IMG/VR virus record: IMGVR_UViG_3300008266_007841 | Span: 1-32,096 of that record | Source of the DNA: a virus | DNA: 32,096 nt | Direction: 5' to 3' (one strand) | In this document: piece after piece, positions 1 through 32,096 of the stretch | Numbering within the stretch: the first letter of the stretch is position 1 | Layout: each line of letters opens with the position of its first letter | The notes under the pieces: model-generated | What the model saw: only the letters and a program-made list of their open reading frames with translations | Database searches by the model: none | Told to the model about the DNA's origin: nothing | Made by a program: the position numbers and the translations under genes

Positions 1-726
1 CTACCTAAAGAACGTTTTGAACAATTGTCTCGTATAATCGAGTCATCTAGATATCGCATAAATACCGATGCTCCGGTAAAAACAGAAACAATACAATTAC
101 CACAAGAATATAAACCACTTTGGATTCCTAAAACATCTCCGGATTATCGTAATGCCGTGCATTATTTAAAAAAGCGCGGAGTAACTATATTTGATATCAT
201 CAAGTATCGAATTGGATTTTGCGAGTCTGGAGAGTATTCCGGCAAAATAATTATTCCTAGCTATGATGCCATGGGTCAATTGAATTATTTTGTGTCTAGA
301 GCATATTATAAATCAGACACACAAAAACACAAGAATCCAAAAATTTCAAAAGACATTATTGGGTTTGACCTTTTTATAAATTGGTCACAACCAATCATAC
401 TTTGTGAAGGAAGTTTTGATGCAATCGCAATTAAACGCAATGCAATTCCGTTGTTCGGAAAAATCATTCAACCTGCACTACAAAAGAAAATCATACAAGA
501 ACGAGTACGAGACATTTATATTTGTTTGGATGCTGATGCATTGAAAAATGCAATTCAAATTGCAGAGCGATTTATGTCAGAAGGCTTAAATGTGTACTTT
601 ATAGAACTGCGAGATAAAGATGCCGCAGAACTAGGCTTTCAACGAATCAACGAAATTATACAAGATACCGATGTATTAACTTTTGAACGGTTAATGCAAC
701 TTAAAATGGGAATGATATGGACATAA
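1..726 (+). CDS. DNA primase, C-terminal part with TOPRIM domain (gp61/DnaG-like), 5' truncated
   Basis: The reading frame is open to the left edge, so the N-terminus (normally a zinc-binding domain) is missing; a TTG at 25 is only an internal codon. About 241 residues remain. The middle part resembles the DnaG/gp61 catalytic core. A TOPRIM signature is visible as ILCEGSFDAIA (nt ~397-432, invariant Glu) followed by the acidic CLDADA strand (nt ~523-540). Family knowledge: these acidic residues bind Mg2+ for RNA primer synthesis at the replication fork, usually in complex with a DnaB/gp41-type helicase. The 3' end overlaps the next gene by 10 bp, suggesting a replication-recombination operon with translational coupling. 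A TOPRIM protein of another type is possible, but the motif order and the neighbour favour primase. Confidence 0.8.
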   Translation, partial: LPKERFEQLSRIIESSRYRINTDAPVKTETIQLPQEYKPLWIPKTSPDYRNAVHYLKKRGVTIFDIIKYRIGFCESGEYSGKIIIPSYDAMGQLNYFVSRAYYKSDTQKHKNPKISKDIIGFDLFINWSQPIILCEGSFDAIAIKRNAIPLFGKIIQPALQKKIIQERVRDIYICLDADALKNAIQIAERFMSEGLNVYFIELRDKDAAELGFQRINEIIQDTDVLTFERLMQLKMGMIWT

Positions 727-3700
727 AACATATTGACACAGGACAAACTGTAATCAACAAAATATTTCACATTTCAGATGTGCATATTCGTACATTGAAA
801 CGACACCGAGAATATCGTGAAGTGTTTCGCAACATGTTTGATTATATCGCACAACATTGCACCGGCGAAAGTATTGCTGTAGTAACAGGTGACATCGTGC
901 ATAGCAAACTAGATATGTCTCCGGAGTTAGTTGATATGCTGGTTGAATTTTTTGATGGCTTCATGATTCCAACCGTAGTAATACTTGGTAACCATGATAT
1001 GAATCTGAACAACATGCACCGCACAGACGCAATTAGTCCGGTTATCAATGTTATTAAGAATCCAAACATCATATTCATCAAAGAAAACGGCTTGTTTGAA
1101 ATTGGTGGAGTTGTGTTTAATCATATGGCTGTCGATGTTGCACCAACCGAATATATTCGTGCTAATCAATTCGATGCTGCATATAAAATTGCAATGCACC
1201 ATGGTGCTGTGAACACTGCAAAAACAGATATTGGATATCAAATATCAAATGAGCATGTAGGTGTTGATTTGTTTGATGGACATGATATTACATTGTTGGG
1301 CGATATTCATAAACCAGCCCAGTTCTTAAATGACGCAAAGACAATTGCATACCCAGGATCACTGATTCAACAAAATCACGGTGAAGCATTAGACCATGGT
1401 ATCTTGGTGTGGGACTTGCCGTGTCGTGAAGCAAAGTTTGTGGAAATACAAAATGATTATGGATATGTAACTTTGGAAGTTGAAGGTGTTACTATTGTGA
1501 AAGCACCACATCGTATGCCAAATAAACCTAGAGTTCGTATCAAGTTTAATGATACCTCAGCAGCGGACATGAAAAAACTTATTGCTACTATTCGCAAGAA
1601 ATATGATGTGCAAGATATCACAATCCAACGAAGTGCAGCTATATCAAACACTAACGCCACATCATCGTTTACTATAGGAAATGTACGAGATGTTGAATAT
1701 CAAAATACATTGATCACAGATTTTATTTCCGTGAACTATCCACAAGCTACTGCAGACGAAACTGATGCAATTCGTCATATCAATCGCACAATAAACTCAA
1801 AACTTCCTGCAGTAGAGTCAGTACGACACATGACCTGGCACCCAATTCAATTTGAATTTGATAACATGTTTTCTTACGGAGAAGGCAATGTTATTAACTT
1901 TGAAAACATGAAAGATGTGTGCGGGTTGTTTGCTGCAAACACATCTGGTAAGTCATCATTGCTTGATGCAATTACATACACTATATTTGATAAGTGCAGC
2001 AAAACAGGCAAAGCACATGAAGTGTTGAACAATAAAAAGGCTTCATTCCGCGGAAAGTTTACATTTGAAATGAACGGCGTTACTTACACTATTGAACGCA
2101 ATGGAATCAAGCAGAAGAATGGTCACGTTAAAGTGCTAGTAGATTTTTATACTGACACAGAAAACCTAAATGGTGAAGAACGTAGTGACACAAACAAATC
2201 GATCCGCCGTTATTTAGGAACTTATGATGATTTCATTTTAACTGCATTTTCACTGCAGGCAGACAACAATAACTTCATTGAAAAGTCACAAAGAGAACGC
2301 AAAGATCTTCTTTCACAGTTTTTAGATATTACGGTATTCGAACAGCTTTATCAGTTAGCATCCGATGAAATTAAAGAGACTGCTGGTAAGTTAAAATCAT
2401 ATAAGAAAACAGATTTTGATGTTATTATCAATGATGCAGATACTATTATTTCAAACAATCAACAAGATATAACTTCATTAGAAACTCAAGAAGATGAATT
2501 GCAAGAAAAGCGCAATGATTATCAAAATGAGATTGTAGACTTAATTCAAACAAAACAGCCAACAACATATACAGGGCCTAATATTAATGAATTAACTAAA
2601 ATTGAAACTGAGTTAACTAAAAAAATATCACAATTACAAGCTGATATTGAAACCGAAGAAACGACTTTAGAAACACTAACAAGTGAATACTTAATCATTA
2701 AAAAAGATAAGCGCAAGTACAATGAAACGGACTTATCAGATAAACTTCAACAATTAGAAAAACTCGAAAAGGAATTAGCACAGATAGATTCGAGTATTAA
2801 AAAACAACAAGGAATTATCAATGCAAAACAAGAAAAAATTAATCACCTTTCCGACCATGAATATGATCCGAACTGTAAATACTGTGTATCTAACGTTTTC
2901 GTACAAAATGCAATTGAAGCACAAAATACGATTATTGCAGATAGAGACATATTAACTGAATTATCTGCGACCCAATTACAATTAAAAACAACAATTTCAA
3001 CATATTCAGATGTTAGAACAGATGCCAATGCATTAGCAATATTAAAACAAAAACATGAAACAAAGCGTTTAGCAATTGAAAAACAAGAATTGCAAATTCA
3101 AATCATTGAAGGCGAATTACAAACTCGAGAATCAGAATTAGAAACATGTTTAGAACGTCAAGAATCATTTAAAGCTAATGCCACTGCAATAACACATAAT
3201 GAACTAATTGATGAAAAAATTAACAAGTTAAAAACATCAATTGATTCAGCTACGATTAAAATAAAAACAATTACAGACACAATTCGTAGTAAACATGGTA
3301 AAATTGAAGTTGCTAAGACCACAAAGAAAACAGCAATTGAGTCATTAGACACATACAAACAACTAGAGACTGAATACAAAGCATACGAATATTATCTAGA
3401 ATCAGTTAAACGTGATGGGGTTCCATACGAGTTAATTGCAAAAGCAATGCCAAAGATTGAAGCAGAAATTAACAATGTGCTGAATCAGGTAGTTGATTTT
3501 AACATGGTGCTTCAGAGCGACGGTAAGAATATCAACGGGTATATTATTTATGATGAAGATAATTTCTGGCCATTGGAATTAACAAGCGGTATGGAACGAT
3601 TTATTTCATCACTTGCAATTCGCATAGCACTTATCAATGTATCAGCACTACCACGTCCTAATTTTATTGCAATTGATGAAGGTTGGGGAAGTTTAGACAC

Positions 3701-3857
3701 AGAACATATTTCTGCAGTAGTTAATCTATTTGATTATTTCAGAATTAAATTTGATTTCTCCATAATCATTTCACACGTCGATTCAATGCGAGATATGGTC
3801 GACAACTTAATCGAAGTAAACAAACTAAACGGATTCAGCCAGATTTCACACAACTGA
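717..3857 (+). CDS. SbcD-SbcC (Mre11-Rad50; T4 gp47-gp46) fusion: recombination nuclease and SMC-type ATPase in one chain
   Basis: One uninterrupted 1046-residue frame carries both subunits of the Mre11-Rad50 complex. Residues ~15-250 form a metallophosphoesterase: DVH at 21-23, GDIVH at 58-62, GNHD at 91-94, a downstream HH, and GDIH near 195. Residues ~380-1046 form a Rad50/SbcC ATPase: Walker A around 405-415 (ANTSGKSS), a long charged coiled coil, a zinc-hook CxxC (CKYC near 720-723), a second coil, an ABC-signature-like region near 955-965, and Walker B IAIDEG near 983-988. Known role: ATP-dependent processing of double-strand ends for recombination-dependent replication, and host DNA breakdown in T4. 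T4 encodes the subunits as separate genes 47 and 46; here they are joined and both active sites look intact. The start overlaps the primase gene. I cannot see whether the product is cleaved. Confidence 0.92.
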   Translation: MDIKHIDTGQTVINKIFHISDVHIRTLKRHREYREVFRNMFDYIAQHCTGESIAVVTGDIVHSKLDMSPELVDMLVEFFDGFMIPTVVILGNHDMNLNNMHRTDAISPVINVIKNPNIIFIKENGLFEIGGVVFNHMAVDVAPTEYIRANQFDAAYKIAMHHGAVNTAKTDIGYQISNEHVGVDLFDGHDITLLGDIHKPAQFLNDAKTIAYPGSLIQQNHGEALDHGILVWDLPCREAKFVEIQNDYGYVTLEVEGVTIVKAPHRMPNKPRVRIKFNDTSAADMKKLIATIRKKYDVQDITIQRSAAISNTNATSSFTIGNVRDVEYQNTLITDFISVNYPQATADETDAIRHINRTINSKLPAVESVRHMTWHPIQFEFDNMFSYGEGNVINFENMKDVCGLFAANTSGKSSLLDAITYTIFDKCSKTGKAHEVLNNKKASFRGKFTFEMNGVTYTIERNGIKQKNGHVKVLVDFYTDTENLNGEERSDTNKSIRRYLGTYDDFILTAFSLQADNNNFIEKSQRERKDLLSQFLDITVFEQLYQLASDEIKETAGKLKSYKKTDFDVIINDADTIISNNQQDITSLETQEDELQEKRNDYQNEIVDLIQTKQPTTYTGPNINELTKIETELTKKISQLQADIETEETTLETLTSEYLIIKKDKRKYNETDLSDKLQQLEKLEKELAQIDSSIKKQQGIINAKQEKINHLSDHEYDPNCKYCVSNVFVQNAIEAQNTIIADRDILTELSATQLQLKTTISTYSDVRTDANALAILKQKHETKRLAIEKQELQIQIIEGELQTRESELETCLERQESFKANATAITHNELIDEKINKLKTSIDSATIKIKTITDTIRSKHGKIEVAKTTKKTAIESLDTYKQLETEYKAYEYYLESVKRDGVPYELIAKAMPKIEAEINNVLNQVVDFNMVLQSDGKNINGYIIYDEDNFWPLELTSGMERFISSLAIRIALINVSALPRPNFIAIDEGWGSLDTEHISAVVNLFDYFRIKFDFSIIISHVDSMRDMVDNLIEVNKLNGFSQISHN

Positions 3858-7005: not shown

Positions 7006-9501
7006 ATGAACAAAATAACAGTACTATTCCCAGGAGGTTTTAAACCATTAACTGGTGCTCATCTAGATTTAGCAAATCGATATGCTACAGATCCACAAGT
7101 AGAACGCGTAATCATGTTGATTGGCCCTAAAGAGCGCGATGGAATTACACGTGAAAAAACCATGGAATTGTTTAACATCTTAAACGATAATCCAAACATT
7201 GAAATACAACCAACTGATTTTAATTCTCCTATCATGGCGGCATATGAATACTTGTTTGCATTGCCACAAGATGCAACAGGTAGATTTGCAATGGCGGCTT
7301 CTGCAAAAGGAGATGATTATGTTCGGGCTAAAGATTTTGTGCCAAATGTAGATAAATATGCTACTATAGGCGACAAAAAAGGACGTACTATTCCTGGTGG
7401 TATTGATGCTACTGAATTGAGTATTAATGTAGATCCATTAGCATATGGCAATGGAGAACCGGTATCTGCGACCATGGTACGAGATGCAATTGCAAACAAT
7501 AATTTTGCACAATTCCGGGCATCATATCCTCAATTTGATGAAGCAGCTGTTAAAAATGCATGGCAAGTTGTTACTGGTATGCAAGAAGCGGTGTTCACAA
7601 AAGATTGGTGGAAATCTGCATTGCAAGAAGATGTTGATGATGTAGTTGAATCAATGATGTTTCCACGTGAAAAGAAACGGCATGCAGAAAAAATTAATAA
7701 ACTAAGAAACTTCCTAGACCAACATACAAGCAAATCATTTGTATATGATTTTGATGATTTTGCTAAAACAGTGGTTGGTGCAAAACTTGTAGAAGGTATT
7801 ATTGCAGAAAACTATATTACCAGACAAGAATTAGCATCAATTGAAAATGCCGTAGATGGATTCTTCCGTGAATATGGTATTGATGTGAATTTTCAAGGAC
7901 AGTTTACTCATTTTATAGAACGATTAAACGATCCTCGTAATGAAGCTCCTATTTATATGGATGAACTTCGAGATTTCTTTGAAGATTTAGCCAATGAGTA
8001 TGGAGATCGAATTGCTAGTCAATTAAAACAAAATCGACCTAGCGGTGTAGGATCTGATTATCAGTTTGATATTCCAATACATATGCCATTCATGTTAGTA
8101 TGGAATTCTAGTAAAAAAATGATTGAACTGCGACCTAAAACAGTTAAAAAACAAAGATCTCGTTGGAAAGCAAATGACCCGAATGATATTATTTATACTA
8201 TCGAGTCACGAATGAAAACCGGAGGTATTTTAACTGAGGGCGGTGCAGCAGGACATATGGCACACCCATGGGACGATCACGGATTAACATTTAATGATGT
8301 CCGTGAAATTGTGTCTCGTGCTTTGTCAGGTCGTCTAGATATTGAAGAAGCTGTCACTGAAAAGACAGATGGTCAAAACATACAATTTACATGGAAAAAT
8401 GGACAACCTGGATTTGCTCGTAACAAAGGCACGATAATTAATCCAATGACGCCAGATCAACTAGTTGCTGATTTTGAACGTAAATATCAAGAAACTATTA
8501 CAAAATCCGGTGCAGCAGCTGCAGAAGGATACAAACTAGTTGTTGATGCATTTCGAGAAATGGCACAAGATATTACCGGGGCAATGTCAGCTTTACCGGC
8601 AGACAAACTAGAACAAATATTCAAAGGCGGCCGAGTATTTGCAAACATGGAAATTATTTATCCAGCAACTAAAAATGTAATTGCATATGACAAAGCACAT
8701 TTACAATTTCATAACCTAGTTGAATACGATGAAAAAGGCAATGTAGTCGAAACCGATTTAACAGGTGGTGCTATGATGCAAAAAATTATTCAAGATGCAA
8801 ATGCACACATGCAAAACACATTTTCATTCATTCCGCCACAACGTATTAAATTAGGCCGAGTGTATGATTTTGAAGATCAGCAATCTGCATTCTACAATGA
8901 AATTGATCAACTTCGTGATCGCTACGGATTAAAAGATACAGACCTATTGAGTGATTATCATAAAGCATGGTGGAGAGATGTTATTCAAACAAAAGCAAAA
9001 GAGGTAGGATATGAAATTCCTGATACTATATTAACTGCATTAATATATCGTTGGGCATTTGATGATAAATCTACAAACATCTCAGTACTTAAAAAACAAA
9101 TAGATAATCCAGAATTTGTTACCTGGGTTGATGCATTTGATAAAAAAGATTTCAAACAGTATCGCAAACAAAACTTGGAACCATTCGAATCTATCTTTTT
9201 GCGATTAGGTGTATTGGTATTACAAAATGCAACAAATTATCTCGCAGCAAATCCAACAAAAACGGTGCAGGATATTAAAACAGAATTAGCACAACTCATC
9301 AAAGATTTGCAAACCAAAGGTGATGAGGCAACTCTAACAAAACTTAAACATGAATTAGGACGAATTCAAAAACTTGGCGGATTTGATGCTATAGTACCGT
9401 CTGAAGGGGTTGTATTCACATATCAAGGCAATACATATAAAATGACAGGCGCATTTGCACCAGTGAACCAAATTTTAGGGGTGTTAAAATACGCACGCTG
9501 A
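7006..9501 (+). CDS. Bifunctional protein: adenylyl/cytidylyltransferase-like domain plus ligase-type (KxDG) nucleotidyltransferase domain
   Basis: This 831-residue protein has two nucleotidyl-transfer modules. The N-terminus (1-~200) has a nucleotidylyltransferase alpha/beta-phosphodiesterase signature: GGFKPLTGAH (10-19, a TxxH variant of the usual (H/T)xGH) and SATMVR (154-159), matching the ISSTxxR motif of NMNAT/PPAT enzymes. A helical linker follows (~200-400). From ~405 a GGAAGHMAHPWD stretch leads into a covalent nucleotidyltransferase (DNA/RNA ligase superfamily): motif I EKTDGQNI with candidate AMP-accepting Lys453, R472 nearby, motif III-like FANMEI (Glu549), motif IV EGVVF (800-804) and motif V YKMTG (Lys812). 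Proteins of this kind occur in other T4-like phages; the true substrate (NAD metabolism, RNA repair or end modification) is not evident. No OB-fold domain follows motif V, which fits RNA-ligase-like members better than classical DNA ligases. Confidence 0.8.
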   Translation: MNKITVLFPGGFKPLTGAHLDLANRYATDPQVERVIMLIGPKERDGITREKTMELFNILNDNPNIEIQPTDFNSPIMAAYEYLFALPQDATGRFAMAASAKGDDYVRAKDFVPNVDKYATIGDKKGRTIPGGIDATELSINVDPLAYGNGEPVSATMVRDAIANNNFAQFRASYPQFDEAAVKNAWQVVTGMQEAVFTKDWWKSALQEDVDDVVESMMFPREKKRHAEKINKLRNFLDQHTSKSFVYDFDDFAKTVVGAKLVEGIIAENYITRQELASIENAVDGFFREYGIDVNFQGQFTHFIERLNDPRNEAPIYMDELRDFFEDLANEYGDRIASQLKQNRPSGVGSDYQFDIPIHMPFMLVWNSSKKMIELRPKTVKKQRSRWKANDPNDIIYTIESRMKTGGILTEGGAAGHMAHPWDDHGLTFNDVREIVSRALSGRLDIEEAVTEKTDGQNIQFTWKNGQPGFARNKGTIINPMTPDQLVADFERKYQETITKSGAAAAEGYKLVVDAFREMAQDITGAMSALPADKLEQIFKGGRVFANMEIIYPATKNVIAYDKAHLQFHNLVEYDEKGNVVETDLTGGAMMQKIIQDANAHMQNTFSFIPPQRIKLGRVYDFEDQQSAFYNEIDQLRDRYGLKDTDLLSDYHKAWWRDVIQTKAKEVGYEIPDTILTALIYRWAFDDKSTNISVLKKQIDNPEFVTWVDAFDKKDFKQYRKQNLEPFESIFLRLGVLVLQNATNYLAANPTKTVQDIKTELAQLIKDLQTKGDEATLTKLKHELGRIQKLGGFDAIVPSEGVVFTYQGNTYKMTGAFAPVNQILGVLKYAR

Positions 9502-11758: not shown

Positions 11759-13339
11759 ATGGCACAACCAAGCATAAAACAGATCATTCAACAGCAGTAC
11801 ATGCAATGTGCTAAAGATCCTGTGTTTTTTATGCGTAACTATTGTTATATTCAACATCCTAAACGAGGCAAGATCAAATTTAATTTATTCCCGTTTCAGG
11901 AAGATTCATTAACTGAATTACGAGATAATCGATACAATGTTATTCTTAAGTCTCGTCAGCTAGGTATCTCAACTCTATCTGCCGGATTTGCATTATGGAG
12001 CATGTTGTTTGCAGAAGACTTCAACGTGTTAGTTATCGCAACTACACAAGAAGTAGCAAAAAACCTAGTAACCAAAGTGCGAGTGATGCATGACAACTTG
12101 CCAAGTTGGTTGAAGGGTACAGTTGAAGCCGATAACAAATTATCATTGAAATTTAAGAACGGCTCACAAATCAAAGCAGTATCATCAGCAACCACAGGAG
12201 CACGTTCAGAAGCATTATCATTGCTAATAGTAGATGAGGCCGCGTTCATCAGAAACATTGAAGAAATATGGATAGCATCGCAAGCAACACTATCAACAGG
12301 TGGAGGTGCAATTGTTCTTTCTACTCCGAATGGAGTTGGTAACTGGTTTCATCAAACATGGGCAGATGCCGAAGCAGCCATTAATGGATTCCACACAATT
12401 AAACTGCATTGGACGGTGCATCCAGAACGAGATCAACAATGGCGTGATGAACAAACACAGCTGTTAGGTGAACGAGGTGCAGCACAAGAATGTGACTGTG
12501 ACTTTGTTAGTTCAGGTCATACTGTCGTGGATGGTCCATTGCTCCTAGAGTATGATAATTTAACAGAAGAACCACTTGAACGTAGAGGTTTTGATGGAAA
12601 TTATTGGGTATGGGAATATCCAGACTATGCAAAAGATTACACGGTTGTGGCTGACGTTGCCCGAGGCGATGGTGGTGACTTTTCAACATTTCAAATATTT
12701 GATGTTCAGGACGTACGACAAGTTGCTGAGTATAAAGGCAAGATTGCGCCGAATGATTTTGGTAACATGCTCGTCACAGTTGCAACCGAATGGAACAATG
12801 CTTTGCTAGCAATTGAAAATGCAAACATCGGATGGGCCGCAATTCAACCGGCACTTGACCGAGGATATCAGAACCTACATTACACATACAAAGACGATGG
12901 ATACACTGATGCATCCGTGCAACTTCGTAAAGGTTATGATATGAAAGATAAGAGCCAAATGGTTCCTGGAGTATCAACTACATCACGTACACGACCATTA
13001 ATGATATCTGCATTAGAAATGTATATGCGTGAAAGAACCCCGGTTATACGCAGTAAGAGGCTAATACAAGAACTATTAGTATTTGTATGGCTTAATGGTA
13101 AAGCACAAGCACAGCAAGGATATAATGATGACCTTGTGATGGCGTATGCAATTACATTGTGGTTACGAGATACAGCATTAAAACTACGACAACAGGGTAT
13201 TGACCTAAATAAACGAGCACTATCATCATTTCAAAAAACTAACCCAGTTATTTACACCGGAAAGCCAAATATGGACAACACCGGATGGAACTGGAACCCA
13301 GGTGATGGAGATCAAGACCTAACTTGGTTGATCAGATAA
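11759..13339 (+). CDS. Terminase large subunit (gp17/TerL-like), DNA-packaging ATPase and nuclease
   Basis: The length of 526 residues is in the normal range for large terminases. The N-terminal ATPase shows a Walker A-type loop KSRQLGIST (64-72) and Walker B LLIVDEAAF with D159-E160. Downstream, LSTPNGVGNW resembles the coupling motif region. The C-terminal RNase H-fold nuclease begins with VVADVARGDGGD (first acidic residue D299). Known role: the protein docks on the portal, pumps DNA into the prohead and cuts the concatemer. Unlike T4 gp17 (SRQLGKTT), the loop has Ile where T4 has the catalytic Lys. Lys64 at the start of the loop probably replaces it, as in the deviant Walker A of lambda terminase. 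The gene begins 1 nt after the upstream stop, and the portal follows after a 48-nt gap. Confidence 0.93.
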   Translation: MAQPSIKQIIQQQYMQCAKDPVFFMRNYCYIQHPKRGKIKFNLFPFQEDSLTELRDNRYNVILKSRQLGISTLSAGFALWSMLFAEDFNVLVIATTQEVAKNLVTKVRVMHDNLPSWLKGTVEADNKLSLKFKNGSQIKAVSSATTGARSEALSLLIVDEAAFIRNIEEIWIASQATLSTGGGAIVLSTPNGVGNWFHQTWADAEAAINGFHTIKLHWTVHPERDQQWRDEQTQLLGERGAAQECDCDFVSSGHTVVDGPLLLEYDNLTEEPLERRGFDGNYWVWEYPDYAKDYTVVADVARGDGGDFSTFQIFDVQDVRQVAEYKGKIAPNDFGNMLVTVATEWNNALLAIENANIGWAAIQPALDRGYQNLHYTYKDDGYTDASVQLRKGYDMKDKSQMVPGVSTTSRTRPLMISALEMYMRERTPVIRSKRLIQELLVFVWLNGKAQAQQGYNDDLVMAYAITLWLRDTALKLRQQGIDLNKRALSSFQKTNPVIYTGKPNMDNTGWNWNPGDGDQDLTWLIR

Positions 13340-13387: not shown

Positions 13388-15217
13388 ATGGCGTCATTAA
13401 GAAAACGATTACAAAACCTGTTTAGTACCAATGTTATTGTTAGAACATATGGTAAAGATAAACTGCGTGTAGTTGATACAAACCGTTTACAATCTGTAGG
13501 TAATTTAGCACAAAGCAAAGTAGCAGACCGATATACACGTTTGCATGGTGCAAATAAGCATCGTGTAGGTGGAATGGGTGGCTATGATTCTAATTACTAC
13601 ATGCATCAGAATCGTATGCAACTTTATGCTGATTACGAAATGATGGATAAAGACCCAATTATTTCTGCAGCATTAGACATATATTCAGATGAATCTACAT
13701 TAGCAGATCAGTTCGGTGAAATCTTAACAATTAAAACAAATAATACCCAACTCCAAAAAATTCTATACAATTTATTTTACGATATCTTAAACGTAGAATT
13801 CAATTTATGGACATGGATTCGTAACATGACCAAGTATGGGGATTTCTTTTTAAAACTAGATATTGCTGATGAATTAGGTATTATCAATGTGCGTCCATTT
13901 TCTAGTTATGAAATGGAACGTTGGGAAGAATATGACAATGCAACTGGCGAATATGATATTAAATTCAAAAATATTGCGTCAGAACAAATGACATATGACA
14001 CATACGAAGTTGCACACTTCCGCATGTTATCAGACTCAAACTTCTTGCCATATGGTAGATCCATGCTCGAAGGAGCCCGTAAAGAATTCCAAAAATTAAT
14101 GATGATGGAAGATGCGATGCTTATACATCGTATTATGCGTGCACCAGAAAAACGTATTTTCAAAATTGATATTGGTAACATTCCACCAAATGAAGTTGAT
14201 ACATTCATGGAAACAATTATCAATAAAATGAAAAAAATTCCACACATTGATCCACAAACCGGAAATTACAATTTAAAGTTTAATCTTAACAACATGTTGG
14301 AAGATTATTACTTGCCAGTGCGAGGAGGTCAATCATCAACTCAGATTGATACATTGCCAGGTATGACATTTACTGGTATGGATGATATCGAATACATCAA
14401 AGATAAAATGATGGCTGCTCTTAAGATTCCTAAACCGTTTTTAGGGTATGGTGAGTCGCAAGAAGGCAAAGTTAACTTAGCATCAATTGATATTCGTTTT
14501 GCTCGTACAATTGAACGCATACAGAAAATTGTAGTTTCTGAATTATCTAAAATTGCAATCGTGCATTTATATTCACAAGGATTTGAGGGTGAAGATTTAG
14601 TTGGATTTGAACTAGAATTAACAGCACCATCAATTATATACGATCAGCAAAAAGTGGCGTTAATGAATGAAAAAATTACATTAGCAAACACAATGAAAGA
14701 TTCAAAATTAGTATCAGATCGATACATTTATGAGTATATCTTTAATATGTCTGAGGATCAGTGGTTGCAAGAACGTAACGATGTTATTGAGGATCTTAAA
14801 CTTCGTTTCCGTCAAAATCAGATTGAACAAGAAGGAAATGACCCAGCTGTTACGGGAGTGTCTTTTGGTACACCACATGACCTAGCAACCGTGCATATGT
14901 CAAGCAATGACGTAGAAGATAAAGATCTGGGAGGTCGACCAAAAGAAGGAATTAAATCAGGACAACACCGTAATGCATTTGGATGGGATCCGACAGGTAA
15001 AAAAGAATTGAAACAACAATTTAATCCGGAAAATCAAAAAACAGCATTCCAACCAGATCCAAATTTTAGATCTAAACTTTCTATGACTCGAACTGAGAAT
15101 ATTGTTAAAGGAATGAAAACAAAACCAGGTGTTAATATCATCACTGAAACGTTTAAAAAATCATCCGACCACGACGCTGACGCTGGAACTATGTTAGATG
15201 AAAATAACATTTTATAA
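13388..15217 (+). CDS. Portal vertex protein (gp20-like)
   Basis: The 609-residue product matches the T4-type portal family in length and in hallmark segments. These include YADYEMMDKDPIISAALDIY near residues 77-96 and EDAMLIHRIMRAPEKRIFKI near 240-259. Further on, it has the GMTFTGMDDIEYIKDKM segment followed by ALKIPKPFLGYG. Known role: a dodecamer at one capsid vertex that nucleates head assembly, forms the DNA channel and docks the terminase and neck. The C-terminal ~120 residues are hydrophilic and variable. Position directly after the terminase and before the protease, scaffold and capsid genes is consistent. It starts just after motif copy 4. Confidence 0.95.
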   Translation: MASLRKRLQNLFSTNVIVRTYGKDKLRVVDTNRLQSVGNLAQSKVADRYTRLHGANKHRVGGMGGYDSNYYMHQNRMQLYADYEMMDKDPIISAALDIYSDESTLADQFGEILTIKTNNTQLQKILYNLFYDILNVEFNLWTWIRNMTKYGDFFLKLDIADELGIINVRPFSSYEMERWEEYDNATGEYDIKFKNIASEQMTYDTYEVAHFRMLSDSNFLPYGRSMLEGARKEFQKLMMMEDAMLIHRIMRAPEKRIFKIDIGNIPPNEVDTFMETIINKMKKIPHIDPQTGNYNLKFNLNNMLEDYYLPVRGGQSSTQIDTLPGMTFTGMDDIEYIKDKMMAALKIPKPFLGYGESQEGKVNLASIDIRFARTIERIQKIVVSELSKIAIVHLYSQGFEGEDLVGFELELTAPSIIYDQQKVALMNEKITLANTMKDSKLVSDRYIYEYIFNMSEDQWLQERNDVIEDLKLRFRQNQIEQEGNDPAVTGVSFGTPHDLATVHMSSNDVEDKDLGGRPKEGIKSGQHRNAFGWDPTGKKELKQQFNPENQKTAFQPDPNFRSKLSMTRTENIVKGMKTKPGVNIITETFKKSSDHDADAGTMLDENNIL

Positions 15218-16109: not shown

Positions 16110-16798
16110 TGAAGTCATTTTTACGAGAAATGGAAGAAAAATTTGTTGAATTAGAAAATCAGTGTGAAGCGTGTAATAAACCTTCTGACGAATGTGTTTG
16201 TGAAGAACTTGATGAAGTATCAGCAACAGGCGGGGTAGCTGGATATAATACTCCTGCAGCTTTCCGTAAAACTGTTAAACATGTAGGATATGCATCTGGA
16301 CTAGAAGAAAACACAAAGCCAGTTTCTAAAACATATAAACCTGGTCATTATCAAACAGTTGAATTTGACGAAGAGGTACAGAACGACAAATTTTCATTTT
16401 CAATTGACGATACAAAATGGTGGAATAAAGAATTAGAATACCCATCAAAAGATATAACTAATTCACCAGGAACATCACATAAAAAAGATCGAGATTCCGG
16501 AACTAAACTTAAAGTTGAAGATGTGTTAGAACGAAAATACGAGCAACTAATTGAAGGATATCGTTCTTTTGCTACGGCTGATTCTAAAACAACACCGGAA
16601 CAAAAAGTAAAAAACACAATTAAAGAAGTTGCACGTAAACTTCAAGAAATTGAAACAATGGTGAATTATAATTCCAGATTAAAAACAGAATCTGGAGTAA
16701 CATCATCTGCATATGGTAATAGCACAAAAAAAGCGTTACAAAAAATATCAGAACGATTAGTAAAAATATCAGAACGAGTAAGAGCATTAGGGGAATAA
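16106..16798 (+). CDS. Unknown head-region protein with an N-terminal Cys cluster
   Basis: This 230-residue protein starts at the first ATG of an ATGATG, overlapping the upstream stop by 4 bp. Residues ~15-33 contain CEACNKPSDECVC, a C-x2-C-x6-C-x-C array that could bind zinc. It is followed by VSATGGVAGYNTPAAF (residues ~38-53), a motif of a kind I associate with assembly or structural proteins of many tailed phages. The C-terminal third is a Lys/Glu-rich helix with duplicated KISERLVKISERV. I infer a head-assembly role from the location between portal and protease. No enzyme motif was seen. The protease gene begins 1 nt after its stop. Confidence 0.75.
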   Translation: MMKSFLREMEEKFVELENQCEACNKPSDECVCEELDEVSATGGVAGYNTPAAFRKTVKHVGYASGLEENTKPVSKTYKPGHYQTVEFDEEVQNDKFSFSIDDTKWWNKELEYPSKDITNSPGTSHKKDRDSGTKLKVEDVLERKYEQLIEGYRSFATADSKTTPEQKVKNTIKEVARKLQEIETMVNYNSRLKTESGVTSSAYGNSTKKALQKISERLVKISERVRALGE

Positions 16799-16799
16799 T

Positions 16800-17426
16800 A
16801 TGTCAAAACAACTTATAGTAGAATATATGCCATTTAAGCCAGTTGGTTCACTTACTGAATCAAGCGGTGCTGCATATGGAATACCAGGTGGTTTTGTAGT
16901 GCAAGGAGTTTTGCAAAGAGCAGGCGCAAAAAATCAAAACGGCCGAGTATATCCTAGAAGCATCTTGGAACGTGAATGTCAACGATACCAACAAGAATAC
17001 ATCAATCAACATCGTGCATTAGGCGAATTAGATCATCCAGAGTCATCGGTTGTTAACTTGAACAACGTGTCACATAACGTGTTGAAGATATGGTGGAAAG
17101 GTGATGATTTATTAGGAGCAGTGCAAATCTTAGATACGCCGTCAGGTAAGATTCTTAAAGAACTTTTCAAGGCTGGAATCACATTAGGAATTTCATCACG
17201 TGGATTAGGATCTGTTAAAGAACTTAGATCAGAAGGCACAGTTGAAGTGCAAGAAGATTTTGAATTGATTTGTTGGGACTTTGTATCAAACCCATCAACC
17301 CATGGTGCATTTATGCGTCCAACATCGATGAATGAATCAGTAAATAAAACAATAACAAATAAATACGCACGAGTACATGATGCAATTACATCTATACTAT
17401 GTGAAGATGGAAAATGTAGGATATAA
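16800..17426 (+). CDS. Prohead core maturation protease (gp21-like)
   Basis: This 208-residue serine protease of the T4 gp21/herpes assemblin-like family shows the expected motifs: NGRVYPRSIL (47-56), ALGELDHPESS with catalytic His79, and GISSRGLGS with candidate catalytic Ser132 or Ser133. Known role: a core-located protease that, after shell assembly, degrades the scaffold and trims the major capsid protein so that DNA packaging can start. Length is typical of gp21. The TAATATG junction places its start 1 nt after the previous gene, consistent with coupling. Scaffold and capsid, its substrates, lie 1.4-2.4 kb downstream. Confidence 0.93.
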   Translation: MSKQLIVEYMPFKPVGSLTESSGAAYGIPGGFVVQGVLQRAGAKNQNGRVYPRSILERECQRYQQEYINQHRALGELDHPESSVVNLNNVSHNVLKIWWKGDDLLGAVQILDTPSGKILKELFKAGITLGISSRGLGSVKELRSEGTVEVQEDFELICWDFVSNPSTHGAFMRPTSMNESVNKTITNKYARVHDAITSILCEDGKCRI

Positions 17427-17848: not shown

Positions 17849-18364
17849 ATGAACAAATTAAAAAAATTGTATCGCGATTTCTTTGGATTAACTGAGGCAG
17901 CAACTCCAACGTCAAATATTCCAAAAATCTTACCAGCTGGTGAAATTGAAAAAAGTATAAAAGCTGTAGAAAAATATGGCGATGCAATGAAAAATGCCGG
18001 CCTTATCGAAACTGAAGATATGGTTGACGAAGCACAATTAATTAATAATATTGTTGATTATCGAGGTGGAGTTGAATATGTGCTTCGTAACCCAGCAGAG
18101 GCAGAAGCTGTTGCAAATGAAATCCGCGAATGGGCTACCAAAAAAGGATTTACTATAGTTAAACATGTTGCGTCACCATCTGGTAAAGTTGGATATTTCT
18201 ATTTTCGATTAGGACAAGATCCAGGACGCGAATCACAACGTATTCAAGGGTATATTGCACAAAAGCCAGAAATTAAACATTTCCGTTTTAACGTAAGAGG
18301 TGAAAAGCCAGCTCCTGAACCTACGCCTGAGCCAACACCTCAACAACCACAAGCAAATATTTAA
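17849..18364 (+). CDS. Unknown protein with a Pro-rich C-terminus
   Basis: This 171-residue protein has an AAGG ribosome-binding site upstream. The N-terminus (MNKLKKLYRDFFGLTEAA) is an amphipathic helix of a type seen in phage core proteins. Residues ~75-150 look like a small alpha/beta domain (VLRNPAEAEAVANEIREW, GYFYFRLGQDPGRESQRI). The last ~20 residues are a PEPTPEPTPQQPQ tail. No family is recognised. It is followed after 9 nt by the bS21-like gene and may be cotranscribed with it. Confidence 0.7.
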   Translation: MNKLKKLYRDFFGLTEAATPTSNIPKILPAGEIEKSIKAVEKYGDAMKNAGLIETEDMVDEAQLINNIVDYRGGVEYVLRNPAEAEAVANEIREWATKKGFTIVKHVASPSGKVGYFYFRLGQDPGRESQRIQGYIAQKPEIKHFRFNVRGEKPAPEPTPEPTPQQPQANI

Positions 18365-18373
18365 ACCAGTTAT

Positions 18374-18619
18374 ATGAGTAAAAAACAAAAACAACATCAA
18401 ATGATTGTTCCCGGTCAATCAATGGCAGTGCATGTACCGGGGAGCACTAGAGAAGATTTAGCAGCCGCACTTAAAACATGGAAACGCAAAGTAAAAATGT
18501 CTGGAGTGTTAGAGGCAACTAAAGATCGAAAAGAATTCATTAAGCCAAGTGTGCTAAAACGACAACAACACGCAAACGCAGCATATATGCAACATATTCG
18601 CACAATGCATTCAAAATAA
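18374..18619 (+). CDS. rpsU: Phage-encoded ribosomal protein bS21
   Basis: The 81-residue basic protein matches bS21 along its core. The segment DLAAALKTWKRKVKMSGVL (28-46) corresponds to the bS21 segment xALxRFKRxxEKxGVL. RKEFIKPSVLKR (52-63) corresponds to the RxxFxKPSxxKR region, and NAAYMQHI (68-75) corresponds to the AAYxQ end typical of Bacteroidota bS21. It has a ~17-residue N-terminal extension relative to bacterial bS21. Known role: a small-subunit protein next to the 3' end of 16S rRNA, involved in initiation. From memory, in flavobacteria a bS21 tyrosine (about residue 54) helps hide the anti-Shine-Dalgarno sequence; Tyr71 here aligns with it by eye. Phage bS21 genes are known from pelagiphages and huge phages. 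It precedes a terminator and the scaffold-capsid genes. Confidence 0.85.
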   Translation: MSKKQKQHQMIVPGQSMAVHVPGSTREDLAAALKTWKRKVKMSGVLEATKDRKEFIKPSVLKRQQHANAAYMQHIRTMHSK

Positions 18620-18645: not shown

Positions 18646-18678
18646 AAGTCCTAGCTTGAAAAAGTTGGGACTTTTTTA
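18646..18678 (+). terminator. Intrinsic terminator after bS21
   Basis: AAGTCC (18646-18651) pairs with GGACTT (18668-18673). An inner CTT/AAG pair closes a GAAA loop, and a run of six T follows (18672-18677). It separates the head-assembly operon ending in bS21 from the scaffold-capsid unit. Confidence 0.8.
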
Positions 18679-18802: not shown

Positions 18803-18807
18803 AGGGG
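18803..18807 (+). promoter_or_regulatory. Shine-Dalgarno-like site of the scaffold gene
   Basis: AGGGG lies 7 nt before the ATG at 18815 and supports that start. It can pair with the CCUCC anti-Shine-Dalgarno core with one G-U wobble. Confidence 0.6.
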
Positions 18808-18814
18808 AAAAACT

Positions 18815-19816
18815 ATGGCAAAATCAGATTTGCTAAAACAAGCAATCGCTGATGCTAACGCTGTTAAAGAAACTGCATTAGCAAACGCAAAGATCGCCTT
18901 ACAAGAAGCATTTGCTCCTCGTCTAGAAAGAATGTTAGCAACTAAACTAACAAATGAAATCGACGGCGAAGAAGAAATTGATGCAACCGGTGAAGAAGCA
19001 TTAGATGCTGCACCAGAAGCTGATATGGAAATGGACATGGATGCTGAAGGTGGCGATGATTTTAATTGGGTAGACAATGATCTATCTGCAGAAGTAGGTG
19101 GAAGCACTTACGATTTCGAAGTTGGCATGGCCGGTGGAGAAGAAGAAGAATTAGGTGGTGAAGAACTTCCAGCAGAAGAAATGCCAATGTCTGATGATGA
19201 GATGGATGCAGAGTACAACGAAGGCTATGATCATGACGATCTAGATCTTGAAGGAATCATTCGTGAGTTAGAAGGCGATATGGACATGGAAATGTCAGAA
19301 GACGAAATGGAAATGCCAGAAGACGATATGGTATCGGATGGATATGAGCCAGAAGCTGGTGATATGGATATCGATGAAATCATTGAATCAATTCTTCGTG
19401 AAGAAGATGATATGGAAGACGAGCCAGAAGTTAAAGATGATGAAGTTGCTAAAAAAGACGAAGAATTAGCAGAAGCTTATCGTACGGTTAAAAAACTTAC
19501 TAGCATCATCAATGAGGTTAATCTTCTTAATGCAAAACTTCTTTACACAAACAAATTGTTCCGCAATTTTGAATTAACTGAAGCACAGAAAATGAAAGTG
19601 ATTGAAAACTTCGATCGTTCAGTTAATACAAGAGAAGTAAAATTAGTATTTACAACATTAGCTGAATCTTTCTCAAGACCAGTAACTAAGAAACGTGTTG
19701 TTAAAGAATCGTATGCGTCTAAAGCGACTGCAACTACGGCTCCTAAAAAAGCACCAATTCTTAATGAAGGATTTGAGCAAGCAGAACGTTGGAAAAAATT
19801 AGCAGGATTGCTATAA
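18815..19816 (+). CDS. Prohead core scaffolding protein (gp22-like)
   Basis: The 333-residue product has the expected scaffold architecture. It starts with an Ala/Lys helix (AKSDLLKQAIADANAVKETA). A very acidic middle follows (residues ~50-225), with repeated MEMDMDAEG and MEMSEDEMEMPED stretches. A conserved-looking helical C-terminal core (VNLLNAKLLYTNKLFRNF, residues ~236-253; FDRSVNTREVKLVFTTLAESF, ~268-288) resembles gp22-type scaffolds of T4-like phages. Known role: the main component of the internal core on which the capsid shell assembles, later degraded by the gp21 protease. It lies downstream of the protease, directly before the major capsid gene, and has its own leader and Shine-Dalgarno-like site. 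The C-terminal basic tail ending ERWKKLAGLL may contact the shell. Confidence 0.87.
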   Translation: MAKSDLLKQAIADANAVKETALANAKIALQEAFAPRLERMLATKLTNEIDGEEEIDATGEEALDAAPEADMEMDMDAEGGDDFNWVDNDLSAEVGGSTYDFEVGMAGGEEEELGGEELPAEEMPMSDDEMDAEYNEGYDHDDLDLEGIIRELEGDMDMEMSEDEMEMPEDDMVSDGYEPEAGDMDIDEIIESILREEDDMEDEPEVKDDEVAKKDEELAEAYRTVKKLTSIINEVNLLNAKLLYTNKLFRNFELTEAQKMKVIENFDRSVNTREVKLVFTTLAESFSRPVTKKRVVKESYASKATATTAPKKAPILNEGFEQAERWKKLAGLL

Positions 19817-19844
19817 CAAAACAAAAAGAAAAGGAAACACAAAA

Positions 19845-21509
19845 ATGAGTATTTCAAATTTATTGCAAACTAACGATTTTGTACAAAGAAATCAAGCAAA
19901 AGCGTTAGCTAGCAAATGGGAAAAGACCGGTCTATTAGAAGGTCTTAAGGGCGAAACCGAAAAAGCAGGTATGGCTCAGTTGCTTGAAAACCAAGCACGT
20001 CAATTAGTAAAAGAAGCTACTTCAACTGGTACAACAGCAGGATCTGAAGAGTGGGCAGGTGTTGCACTTCCATTGGTACGTCGTATCTTTGCTGAGTTTG
20101 CAGCAAAAGAATTCGTTTCAGTTCAGCCAATGAACTTACCATCAGGACTTATTTTCTATCTAGATTTTAAGTATGGTACAGCTCAGCCTGGATTTGACAA
20201 TGATAACTTGAACCGCACAGGTGATCCATTTGGTTCTCCAAACGCAGACGATTCAATGTTCGGTGTTACTACTACTGCTAATGATGCATCAGGAGGTCTT
20301 TACGGTGCAGGTCGTTTCGGATATTCAATCAACGAAACAGCTTCAATTGTAACAGCAACTACTGGTTCTACTCCAACAGCTACGCAAGTTAATGGTGATT
20401 CTGCATACTCTGGATCTTCTGCATTTAAAGTGGTAACAGTTAACGTTCCTACAAATGCAGATCTTTATGCAGTACGTTCATTCACATTCTTGTCTGGATC
20501 TACAGAAATTGTACCGGTACAAGCATTCTCTACTATCACAAGCAATTACACCGCATCATTCGTTGTAACAAACGCACAATTAACTGCAGTTAGTGCATCG
20601 ATTTCAGCAGGTACATTGAGATTAAACTATAGCAAACAACCTACAGATATCACTCGTGGTGATTTTGAAGATGCAAATCCATTCAAAGGTACTGCTTATG
20701 GTACATCTGGTATTAACCAAGGTACGGATATTGATATCCCAGAAATTAACCTTGAAATGCAATCTGAGCCAATTGTTGCTAAGACTCGTAAGTTGAAAGC
20801 AGTTTGGACTCCTGAGTTTGCTCAAGATTTAAATGCTTACCACTCAATTGATGCTGAAGCTGAATTGACTTCAATGTTGTCTGAGTATGTATCAATGGAA
20901 ATCGATCTTGAAATCCTTGATATGTTGATCGCAGCAGCTCCAACAACTGAGTATTGGTCAGCTCGTAACAATACACTTTGGAATGGTACTGCATTTGAAC
21001 AAGTAGCAGCTGGTGCTGTATCAGCAACTGGTTTAGGTGATGGTTTCTATAACACTCAAGGTGGATGGTTCCAAACTTTAGGTACTAAACTTCAAAAAGT
21101 ATCTAATAAGATTCACCAAAAAACATTGCGTGGTGGTGCTAACTTCCTAGTATGTTCTCCTGCAGTAGCAACTGTTCTTGAGTCTATCCCAGGATTTGCC
21201 GCTGACACAGATGGTACTAAAATGGAATTTGCAGCAGGTGTACAAAAAATTGGTGCAATCAATAACCGTTACACAGTTTATAAAAACCCATACATGTTAG
21301 AAAATGTAATCTTAATGGGCTTTAGAGGTTCACAATTCTTGGAAACAGGTGCTGTATTTAGCCCATACATTCCATTGATTATGACTCCACTTGTATACGA
21401 TCCAGTTAACTTCACTCCACGTAAAGGTGTCATGACACGTTACGAGAAGAAAGTAGTTCGTTCTGAATTCTACGGAAAAGTATACGTTCACGGATTAAAC
21501 ACTCTTTAA
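19845..21509 (+). CDS. Major capsid protein (gp23-like)
   Basis: The 554-residue protein matches T4 gp23-type capsid proteins. It has an N-terminal helical pro-segment, then WAGVALPLVRRIFAEFAAK (~70-88), VQPMNLPSGLIFYLDF (~93-108), and a C-terminal IPLIMTPLVYDPVNFTPRKG followed by MTRYEKK. Known role: HK97-fold shell subunit. A candidate gp21 cleavage point lies after Glu57 in LVKEATSTG, near the T4 site (after residue 65), though the exact bond is a guess. AAAAGGA (19829-19835), 9 nt before the ATG, is a good Shine-Dalgarno match. Codon choice here is visibly more uniform (frequent CTT, GCT, GGT) than in the neighbouring genes, as expected for a highly expressed gene. A terminator follows the stop. 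Confidence 0.95.
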   Translation: MSISNLLQTNDFVQRNQAKALASKWEKTGLLEGLKGETEKAGMAQLLENQARQLVKEATSTGTTAGSEEWAGVALPLVRRIFAEFAAKEFVSVQPMNLPSGLIFYLDFKYGTAQPGFDNDNLNRTGDPFGSPNADDSMFGVTTTANDASGGLYGAGRFGYSINETASIVTATTGSTPTATQVNGDSAYSGSSAFKVVTVNVPTNADLYAVRSFTFLSGSTEIVPVQAFSTITSNYTASFVVTNAQLTAVSASISAGTLRLNYSKQPTDITRGDFEDANPFKGTAYGTSGINQGTDIDIPEINLEMQSEPIVAKTRKLKAVWTPEFAQDLNAYHSIDAEAELTSMLSEYVSMEIDLEILDMLIAAAPTTEYWSARNNTLWNGTAFEQVAAGAVSATGLGDGFYNTQGGWFQTLGTKLQKVSNKIHQKTLRGGANFLVCSPAVATVLESIPGFAADTDGTKMEFAAGVQKIGAINNRYTVYKNPYMLENVILMGFRGSQFLETGAVFSPYIPLIMTPLVYDPVNFTPRKGVMTRYEKKVVRSEFYGKVYVHGLNTL

Positions 21510-28734: not shown

Positions 28735-29421
28735 ATGGCGTTTAATTATTCACCGAAAATAGTAACAGATGGATTGATACTGTATTTAGATGCAGCAAAT
28801 CCACGTTCATATACGTCTGGGTCAACTTCATGGGTAGATTTATCACGTGGTGGAAATAACGGAACATTGGTAAATGGTCCTACATTTTCAAGTGCACATG
28901 GTGGGTCAATTGTTTTTGATGGAACAAATGATTACGTTGATTTAGGTGGAAGTTTAAATTTAAAACCAACAACATCAATTACTGTTTCGACTTGGATCCG
29001 ATTCAATGCCATGGTTGCAAACGTAAGAGCATTATCTGATTGGCATCAAAATGGTGCAACTGATAGATGGATTTTTTACATTACTGATTCTAATACAATA
29101 CAGTGGTATCTTTTAACAAATTCCTTCGCTTCTGCAGTCCCATTTTCACCAGTATTATTAAATACCTGGTATAATTTTACAGGCGTATATGATGGAATTT
29201 CCCAAATTTTTTATGTTAATGGAGTATTTCATAATTCAACCTCAAAAACAGGCACTATGAATACATCAAATACATCTCAACCCGTAAGATTAGGAGGCCA
29301 AGTTTCAGCTGGAGGATATCATAATGGTAATATATCAACAACATTAATTTATAATCGCGCTCTTACAGCAACAGAAGTCTTACAAAACTACAACGCAACT
29401 AAAACTAGATTTGGACTATAA
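28735..29421 (+). CDS. LamG/concanavalin A-fold virion protein, paralog 1
   Basis: This 228-residue protein is a single jelly-roll domain of the Laminin-G/pentraxin (LamG_3) type. It opens with IVTDGLILYLDAANPRSY and a WVDLSRGGNNGTLVNGPTF stretch, has GGSIVFDGTNDYVDL (~53-67) and STWIRF, and ends in ISTTLIYNRALTATEVLQN then YNATKTRFGL. Such domains on phage tails usually bind glycans. It is the first of three paralogs in this cluster. AAGG (28729-28732) overlaps the fibre stop, and the ATG is 4 nt after that stop. The next gene starts in the TAATG junction. Confidence 0.85.
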   Translation: MAFNYSPKIVTDGLILYLDAANPRSYTSGSTSWVDLSRGGNNGTLVNGPTFSSAHGGSIVFDGTNDYVDLGGSLNLKPTTSITVSTWIRFNAMVANVRALSDWHQNGATDRWIFYITDSNTIQWYLLTNSFASAVPFSPVLLNTWYNFTGVYDGISQIFYVNGVFHNSTSKTGTMNTSNTSQPVRLGGQVSAGGYHNGNISTTLIYNRALTATEVLQNYNATKTRFGL

Positions 29422-31121: not shown

Positions 31122-32096
31122 ATGAATGAATTTATAATCAAGAACGGCTTCCGTTCACAAGGTAACAGTGAAGTCACCGGATCACTCAACGTAACTGGGG
31201 GCATAACCGGATCTTTGCAAGGTACAGCAGCATATGCCGAATCGGCATCATACGCAACAACTGCACTCCAAGCGTTAGGGATTGCCAACGCAGTAACAAA
31301 CAACAGCAACAACCGAGTGCTGACAGCTACTGGAGGAACAGATATATATGCTGAAACTAATTTAACATTTGATTCGACAGTACTGACTTTAACCAATGGT
31401 ATCCTAACATTTACAGGATCTGGTGCTGGTATTGGTAGAATACAACAATCACCAGGAGGAGCAGCTAATGGTTCATATTCTCATGCACAAGGATTAGCTG
31501 TGAGTGCAAACGGTGCATACTCCCATGCAGAGGGATCTAGTACCAATGCATCAGGATTTGGATCACATGCAGAAGGTTCTGGCTCATTTACTAGTACATC
31601 TACGTTGTACGGGGTAAAATCTAACACAATCACTTCCGGTGTATTTCAATTAGCTGGTGATGTAACGGCTGTCTTTGCTCCAGGTAATAGGTTATACTAT
31701 AACAGTGCTGCATATCCAGACAATACTACATTTGTAGTTGATACTTCAGTTTTTGGAGGAGTAAATACAACCATAACCTTAACTAACACTGGTATCACTG
31801 ACAGTAACTTTGTTGTTGGAAGTTTAGATTACCTATATACCAGCTGGGGAGGCAATCAACCATCATCGGCTGATGGGGGTCATGCCGAAGGATTCTACAC
31901 AACCGCAGTAGCAGATTGGTCGCATGCGGAAGGATCCCAAACACAAACATTTGCAAGATATTCACACGCCGAAGGAGACGGTACACAAGCAAACGGTACA
32001 TATTCACACGCGGAAGGTAGAAATGCAAAAACCTTTGGACAATACTCACACGCCGAAGGACGTGAAACTCAAGCAAAGGGTGATGGATCACATGCG
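31122..32096 (+). CDS. Tail fibre protein with SHAEG (YadA/Hep_Hag-like) repeats, 3' truncated
   Basis: An ATG at 31122 opens a frame with no stop to the right edge (325 codons seen). The N-terminus MNEFIIKNGFRSQGNSEVTG is followed by SLNVTGGITGSLQGTAAYAE and SASYATT, resembling the fibre module of the large fibre gene. From ~residue 115 there is a repeat built on YSHAEG with ~14-residue spacing: SHAQG, SHAEG (at least six copies), each followed by a (T/S)xAxG-like half. This is the pattern of trimeric left-handed beta-roll head domains in YadA-type adhesins and phage fibres. Between residues ~150 and 245 a non-repeat insert occurs (LYGVKSNTITSGVFQLAGDV). Probable host-recognition fibre. The C-terminus lies outside the window. 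Confidence 0.83.
   Translation, partial: MNEFIIKNGFRSQGNSEVTGSLNVTGGITGSLQGTAAYAESASYATTALQALGIANAVTNNSNNRVLTATGGTDIYAETNLTFDSTVLTLTNGILTFTGSGAGIGRIQQSPGGAANGSYSHAQGLAVSANGAYSHAEGSSTNASGFGSHAEGSGSFTSTSTLYGVKSNTITSGVFQLAGDVTAVFAPGNRLYYNSAAYPDNTTFVVDTSVFGGVNTTITLTNTGITDSNFVVGSLDYLYTSWGGNQPSSADGGHAEGFYTTAVADWSHAEGSQTQTFARYSHAEGDGTQANGTYSHAEGRNAKTFGQYSHAEGRETQAKGDGSHA

Follow-up and report, generated by a model that had tools for sequence, protein, structure and literature searches.

The virus sequence of 32,096 bases analysed here (the window) codes for a homologue of ribosomal protein bS21 embedded in a cluster of T4-like head genes. The protein carries a basic amino-terminal arm that is the least variable part of its family, its own gene has no strong Shine-Dalgarno (SD) signal, and the capsid genes of its relatives do have one, with a bias of SD motifs to late genes. 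This phage bS21 may steer host ribosomes toward late phage messages.

The bS21 gene among head genes

The product of the gene matches Pfam family PF01165 (Ribosomal_S21) over residues 26-71 with 38.9 bits (cut-off 27; E 7e-10) and NCBIfam TIGR00030 with 31.7 bits (curated cut-off 28.95). Both HMM searches pass the curated cut-offs, in agreement with the assignment to bS21 made in an earlier, sequence-only reading of this DNA. PHROG 21469 'ribosomal protein S21' is also matched (E 7e-4), and the top hit among solved chains is 7jil_z (E 8e-8; query residues 21-76 on chain residues 4-59) of the F. johnsoniae ribosome (PMC9723584). The frame has 107 relatives in IMG/VR, of which the best 80 were retained, and is therefore not a product of chance: it is confirmed as a real gene coding a bS21 homologue (Table 1), a variant of an already published kind of phage ribosomal protein. 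Its AlphaFold2 model has a mean pLDDT of 89.8 and a pTM of 0.53, and a Foldseek search with this model gave 9 matches at E <= 10, none at E <= 0.001 and no bS21 chain. The miss probably reflects the limits of folding the non-globular bS21 on its own; it gives no support either, and fold comparison was discarded as evidence for bS21.

Table 1. Features of the window around the bS21 gene
Feature	Coordinates	Strand	Basis
Large terminase	11759..13339	+	PF03237 E 1e-11; phrog_2 E 2e-43
Portal gp20	13388..15217	+	PF07230 E 3e-66
Prohead protease (Peptidase_S77, gp21-like)	16800..17426	+	PF03420 E 6e-32
Gene without assigned function (g17849 family), upstream of bS21	17849..18364	+	Precedes bS21 in 80/80 related loci
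bS21 homologue (rpsU-like), 81 aa	18374..18619	+	Uninterrupted from ATG at 18374 to TAA ending at 18619; profile matches, relatives
N-terminal arm, residues 1-17 (MSKKQKQHQMIVPGQSM)	18374..18424	+	Residues 2-15 are the family's lowest-entropy stretch
Tyr71 codon (F. johnsoniae Tyr54)	18584..18586	+	Alignment to 7jil_z
Intrinsic-terminator-like hairpin with T tail, candidate transcript end	18646..18673	+	Just 3' of bS21
SD-like AGGGGA ahead of putative scaffold gene	18803..18808	+	Pairing <= -6 kcal/mol in 48/48 start regions
Putative head scaffold/core gene, acidic, at T4 gp22 position	18815..19816	+	Synteny
SD-like AAGGAA ahead of major capsid gene	19831..19836	+	Pairing energies of start regions
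Major capsid protein gp23	19845..21509	+	PF07068 E 3e-74

Homologues of gp17, gp20, gp21 and gp23 identified with Pfam and PHROGs lie in T4 order within the window, which points to a T4-like phage. The bS21 gene and the head genes are co-directional in 80 of the 80 relatives, and the putative scaffold gene lies 3' of bS21 in 74 of these loci, the other six contigs stopping within 0.5 kb. This gene passes the cut-off of no Pfam family and matches the gene that precedes the major capsid protein (MCP) gene in Flavobacterium phage immuto. The head-gene setting is consistent with the late expression of phage bS21 proposed earlier. Terminator-like sites are as frequent in the scanned region as expected by chance (2 found, 1.8 expected). 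The longest contig with an identical bS21 spans 169 kb, and the search for tRNA genes found none in the window.

An SD-like AGGGGA is also found before the protease gene (16770-16800), and many relatives have a similar site (AGGAGA or AGGGGA). It was disregarded, as it falls in the final codons (RALGE-stop) of the preceding gene. Elsewhere in the window, positions 717-3857 code a 1046-aa protein with a calcineurin-like phosphoesterase part (residues 15-200) and an AAA/SMC part, by its Pfam matches an SbcD-SbcC (T4 gp47-gp46) fusion. The 831-aa protein of positions 7006-9501 has no Pfam match at E 0.01; its start, PGGFKPLTGAHLDL, resembles a nucleotidyltransferase motif. Similar proteins begin at 28735, 29421 and 30388 (segment 28735-31068), the first LamG-like (PF13385 E 1e-22) and the others alike by eye, while a long protein with many SHAEG-like repeats starts at 31122 and runs past the window end at 32096.

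The amino-terminal arm and the type of bS21

No part of the armed bS21 protein varies less than the arm. Across 55 distinct complete armed proteins its consensus is M[SN]KKQKQHQxIVPGN, with K3, K4, H8 and G14 invariant, and the mean entropy of residues 2-15 is 0.52, compared to 0.77-1.64 outside the arm (0.77 in helix 1 and 1.64 in the carboxyl-terminal stretch). Retrieval of these proteins relied in part on the arm sequence, a bias that was offset with a protease-anchored set. At >=75% protease identity this set holds 33 loci, 29 with bS21 and four on contigs that end ahead of its expected start. A relaxed arm pattern fits all 29 proteins (exact KKQKQH in 17) and the arm is again least variable, with an entropy of 0.89 versus 1.23-1.84 elsewhere. 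Codons 3-8 of the arm vary little (AAA, CAA), while Gly14 is coded by GGA, GGT and GGC in a 32/28/18 ratio; conservation of codons 3-8 as DNA, not protein, is conceivable.

In the window the arm, which starts with MSKKQKQHQ, is basic and polar, has no Phe, Tyr or Trp, and is predicted by AlphaFold2 to be helical at residues 3-9. The earlier remark that an extension of ~17 residues is unlike the host protein holds: residues 1-17 have no counterpart in chain 7jil_z, and the arm is missing from all 70 Bacteroidota bS21 examined (30 best-scoring loci and 40 picked ones, a non-random sample). More distant T4-like phages feature other basic stretches ahead of a PG-like turn in bS21. A scan of genome contigs for a cellular source of the arm gave 592 pattern matches, of which the family alignment confirmed no relative; the patterns covered the arm and one helix motif, and distant copies could escape them. 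T4-type prohead proteases cut at [IL]xE sites. Glutamate is missing from columns 1-23 of the 55-protein alignment and the arm has therefore no such site, which rules it out as a T4 capsid-targeting peptide.

The alignment to 7jil_z makes Tyr71 the equivalent of F. johnsoniae Tyr54. The latter stacks on A1534 of 16S rRNA in the F. johnsoniae ribosome, is uniquely conserved in bS21 of Bacteroidia, whose ribosomes are SD-blind, and helps to hide the anti-SD (PMC9976891), which is occluded in F. johnsoniae ribosomes (PMC8710568). The position is aromatic in 55 of the 55 armed proteins, Phe in 32 and Tyr in 23, so that of the conserved tyrosine claimed earlier the position stands and strict identity does not. 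The armed family motif is A-x-[FY]-x-Q. A-x-Y-x-[QE] is found in 80/80 named flavobacterial-type rpsU loci and in 21 of the 70 Bacteroidota bS21, the other 49 having A-x-R-R.

The motif thus fits the 'Bacteroidota type' proposed from the sequence, while the phylogeny places the phage protein outside the Bacteroidia-form host clade in a tree of 64 columns with the arm omitted, weak because of its few columns and long branches. The A-x-Y host clade (99) takes in bS21 of the armless antisense phages but not the armed proteins, which make up a separate clade (94) among bS21 from other T4-like phages. The groups 'Bacteroidia' and 'non-Bacteroidia' were defined by A-x-Y-x-[QE] and not by taxonomy, hence the tree cannot prove that the motif marks class Bacteroidia. 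Recent capture of the gene from a Bacteroidia host finds no support in this weak tree. A host-like copy was seen on a 72-kb contig classed as viral (L307), whose bS21 is 77% identical to that of F. johnsoniae over 56 residues and has H at position 54.

Several features of this protein have already been published: the location of phage bS21 genes in head clusters, substitution for the host bS21, an aromatic residue that is conserved, and basic amino-terminal extensions (PMC6375957, PMC7162821, PMC9723584). In the phages of Chen et al. 2022 (PMC9723584) bS21 also lies in the terminase/portal/protease/capsid cluster, has the aromatic residue at position 54 and a predicted late role with late transcription; its gene is antisense to the head genes in complete genomes of 293-331 kb, whereas the window bS21 is co-directional. 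Loci L308-L334 resemble those phages, identity of the clades not being proven: their bS21 is armless, inside the Bacteroidia-form clade, and their genes are without SDs, while the window bS21 is armed, co-directional, outside that clade and found in phages with SDs. The rpS21 of huge phages, with genomes over 200 kb, shares with it a basic amino-terminal extension, for which a preference for phage mRNAs was suggested (Al-Shayeb et al. 2020, PMC7162821). An analysis of sequences or SDs was not found in the accessible text of that paper, and the window protein differs in the lack of Phe, Tyr and Trp in its arm and in the 169 kb of its longest contig.

Viral bS21 is common in aquatic phages. That of the pelagiphage myovirus HTVC008M enters E. 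coli ribosomes, which then made ~5% of normal product in vitro (Mizuno et al. 2019, PMC6375957). It is of alphaproteobacterial type and most like the protein of its Pelagibacter host, unlike the window bS21. RpsU of Microcystis phage Mel-JY01 (PP395634) is encoded at the syntenic position, between the genes for prohead protease and capsid, with neither the KKQKQH arm nor, by eye, the aromatic residue 54, and its recorded host is a cyanobacterium.

Shine-Dalgarno signals on phage genes

SDs were scored as the pairing energy of the 20 bases before the start codon with the 16S tail, taken as ACCUCCUUUCU. Flavobacterial rpsU start regions reach -16.0 to -17.4 kcal/mol in 80/80 cases, while none of 68 distinct phage bS21 start regions is at <= -6 kcal/mol (median 0.0). 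The phage gene is without the strong, extended SD of flavobacterial rpsU. The F. johnsoniae protein shares with it the core by sequence, the Tyr54 position and A-x-Y-x-Q; it is armless and its gene is autoregulated, the extended SD sensing bS21 shortage (PMC9976891). Lacking a strong SD, the phage copy is without this shortage-sensing element.

The situation is the reverse for the genes downstream. In armed relatives pairing of <= -6 kcal/mol is reached in all 48 distinct scaffold start regions (shuffled 9%) and in 64/69 distinct MCP start regions (shuffled 11%). The same threshold was applied to the genes of longer sequences, with a single ORF caller for all. Three long contigs of armed phages have SD fractions of 0.17, 0.25 and 0.23, against 0.06-0.10 after shuffling. 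Flavobacterium phage immuto, which has no bS21, gives 0.02 over 100 kb, with 0.03 after shuffling and 0.15 and 0.14 in its shifted control windows. A Flavobacterium chromosome sample of 200 kb stands at 0.07 (0.03 when shuffled), and the 50-kb samples of Mel-JY01 and T4 reach 0.28 and 0.39. In the armless antisense bS21 loci the fraction is 0.08 (n 98; shuffled 0.03; shifted windows 0.09 and 0.11), and 0/3 distinct MCP and 0/7 distinct protease start regions reach -5.

SD motifs of armed phages are biased to late genes, not exclusively so. Homologues in immuto or T4 served to class the genes of the three contigs as early (1-49 kb of immuto, genes for replication and nucleotides) or late (the regions for baseplate, tail and head), an assignment of our own. 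GG motifs precede 48/75 late and 11/37 early genes (p 0.001), the early ones ruling out strictly late-only use of SDs; at <= -6 the counts are 28/75 and 8/37 (Fisher p 0.13, rank test p 0.007). The corresponding late and early GG counts are 16/28 and 6/10 in Mel-JY01 (p 1, with only 10 early genes), 40/48 and 38/55 in T4 regions (p 0.11), and 4/50 and 2/58 in immuto.

Carriage of bS21 and an SD before the capsid gene go together. Loci from three protease-anchored scans, 19 bS21-relative loci and two named phages gave 233 entries, of which 111 distinct ones were kept; entries were dropped when the protease or MCP start was not located or the protease was identical. The MCP start region reaches <= -5 kcal/mol in 70/75 loci with bS21 versus 1/36 without, and a plain count of GG motifs gives 72/75 versus 1/36. 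In ten records of 36-162 kb whose locus lacks bS21, PF01165 matches nothing elsewhere in the record. The protease tree supports an armed clade (36 rows) and two clades without bS21 (26 and 7 rows). On this tree bS21 presence changes 5 times and SD 9 times. After correction for shared descent the association loses its significance, because only 2 independent pairs are found on well supported branches and 5 on all. L141 and L550, nested among carriers, have neither bS21 in the locus nor SD, as the link predicts; exceptions are L126 (bS21, no SD) and L535 (SD on a 78-kb record, no detected bS21). The script labels for presence of the arm are crude, L034, L158, L542 and probably L126 being misjudged, and L034 was moved by hand to the Tyr54-type group for the phylogeny and the GG-motif counts. 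A study of huge bS21 phages saw no clear relation between their binding sites and those of the hosts (PMC7550191), a result that bears against a general link.

Arm conservation, the SD-less phage bS21 gene, its association with capsid SDs and the late bias are unreported in the open-access papers found by our literature search. No title or abstract there ties phage bS21 carriage to SD use, and an analysis of SDs in phage genes was not found in the accessible text of PMC9723584.

Possible action on host ribosomes

The explanation that best accounts for the whole, to which we give about an even chance, is that a late-made phage bS21 enters the host 30S subunit and that its arm favours SD-bearing late phage mRNAs. 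The paralogue would probably be made late, with the head genes, and most likely replaces loosely held host bS21 in 30S subunits, for which the pelagiphage protein is a precedent (PMC6375957). Its core and carboxyl-terminal helix would adjoin the 16S 3' tail (anti-SD), the conserved basic arm might reach the nearby mRNA path or the 16S tail, and initiation on phage late mRNAs, many with SD motifs, would be favoured. Without an SD in front of it, the phage gene should escape the shortage-sensing control of host rpsU. An altered choice of mRNAs late in infection, as put forward in the sequence-only reading, is plausible and previously published.

Several observations stand against this explanation. 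The aromatic residue that holds the 16S tail is retained (55/55), and this speaks against a mere release of the anti-SD. Some early genes of armed phages have SDs (11/37, versus 2/58 in immuto; Fisher p 0.13 at <= -6), and the armless antisense phages have bS21 and no SDs. The bS21-SD link, finally, loses significance after phylogeny, with the L126 and L535 exceptions and the result of PMC7550191.

It is quite possible, if short of probable, that the link is one of host or lineage history: armed phages would infect SD-using bacteria, bS21 and SDs marking the same clades. The few independent changes on the protease tree, the position of armed bS21 outside the Bacteroidia-form clade, the SDs on some early genes and the use of SDs by 31/35 bS21 phages without the Tyr54-type motif (script labels, L034 misplaced) all fit this history. 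Against it, A-x-[YF]-x-Q matches flavobacterial bS21, and Tyr54 is described as uniquely conserved in the SD-blind Bacteroidia (PMC9976891); Mel-JY01, for which only 10 early genes were available, shows no late bias, and the two loci nested among carriers, L141 and L550, have neither bS21 in the locus nor SD.

The closest cultured phages by MCP are immuto and Mel-JY01, tied at 55%. DNA matches to the phage at E <= 0.01 (best 1.6e-5) occur in 59 of 395 Bacteroidota genomes; they were taken for chance hits of AT-rich sequence and a host assignment by DNA match was rejected. CRISPR-like repeats are absent at the 10 matched places fetched from these genomes, and the phage MCP was found in 0/395 in a search run without positive control. 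Although Mel-JY01 (L082) is recorded as a Microcystis phage, it is no more distant from the window phage than immuto by capsid (55%) and by protease (58%). Its bS21 has another form, and the host label deserves a check.

The literature leaves two roles for phage bS21, changed mRNA choice or supply alone. In the latter the phage would top up a loosely bound, limiting protein for the late burst with mRNA choice unchanged, which we find rather unlikely. Initiation on SD-less mRNAs is poor when ribosomes lack bS21, host rpsU is subject to autoregulation (PMC9976891), the phage gene is free of the rpsU control element, and the tail-gripping aromatic residue is kept, all as expected for supply; a plain host-like copy would suffice for it, yet the arm, absent from 70/70 Bacteroidota bS21, is the least variable segment. 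We consider improbable that, late in the infection of SD-ignoring bacteria, arm-bearing bS21 restores or substitutes for anti-SD recognition, SD-bearing late phage mRNAs then outcompeting SD-less host mRNAs; if true, this would be a phage-built specialised ribosome. Very improbable is a role as head component, either packaged and injected for action at the outset of infection or recruited for a structural function: the gene lies between prohead protease and scaffold genes and packaging was raised as a possibility by Chen et al. (PMC9723584), while the arm lacks glutamate and hence an [IL]xE site, and the bS21 core residues are kept.

Beyond the published record, this analysis finds that the arm is conserved, that an SD is missing from the phage bS21 gene, and that capsid genes show an SD pattern, with a late bias of SD motifs. 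A phage-built ribosome that uses SDs thereby becomes a testable idea, still unproven because independent origins are few. Armed phages have capsid SDs and an SD-less bS21 gene, armless antisense bS21 phages neither arm nor SD, and the immuto clade neither SD nor bS21. From this joint pattern follows a definite prediction that reporters in F. johnsoniae can test, a species for which SD-dependent and SD-less reporters and bS21 mutants exist (PMC9976891).
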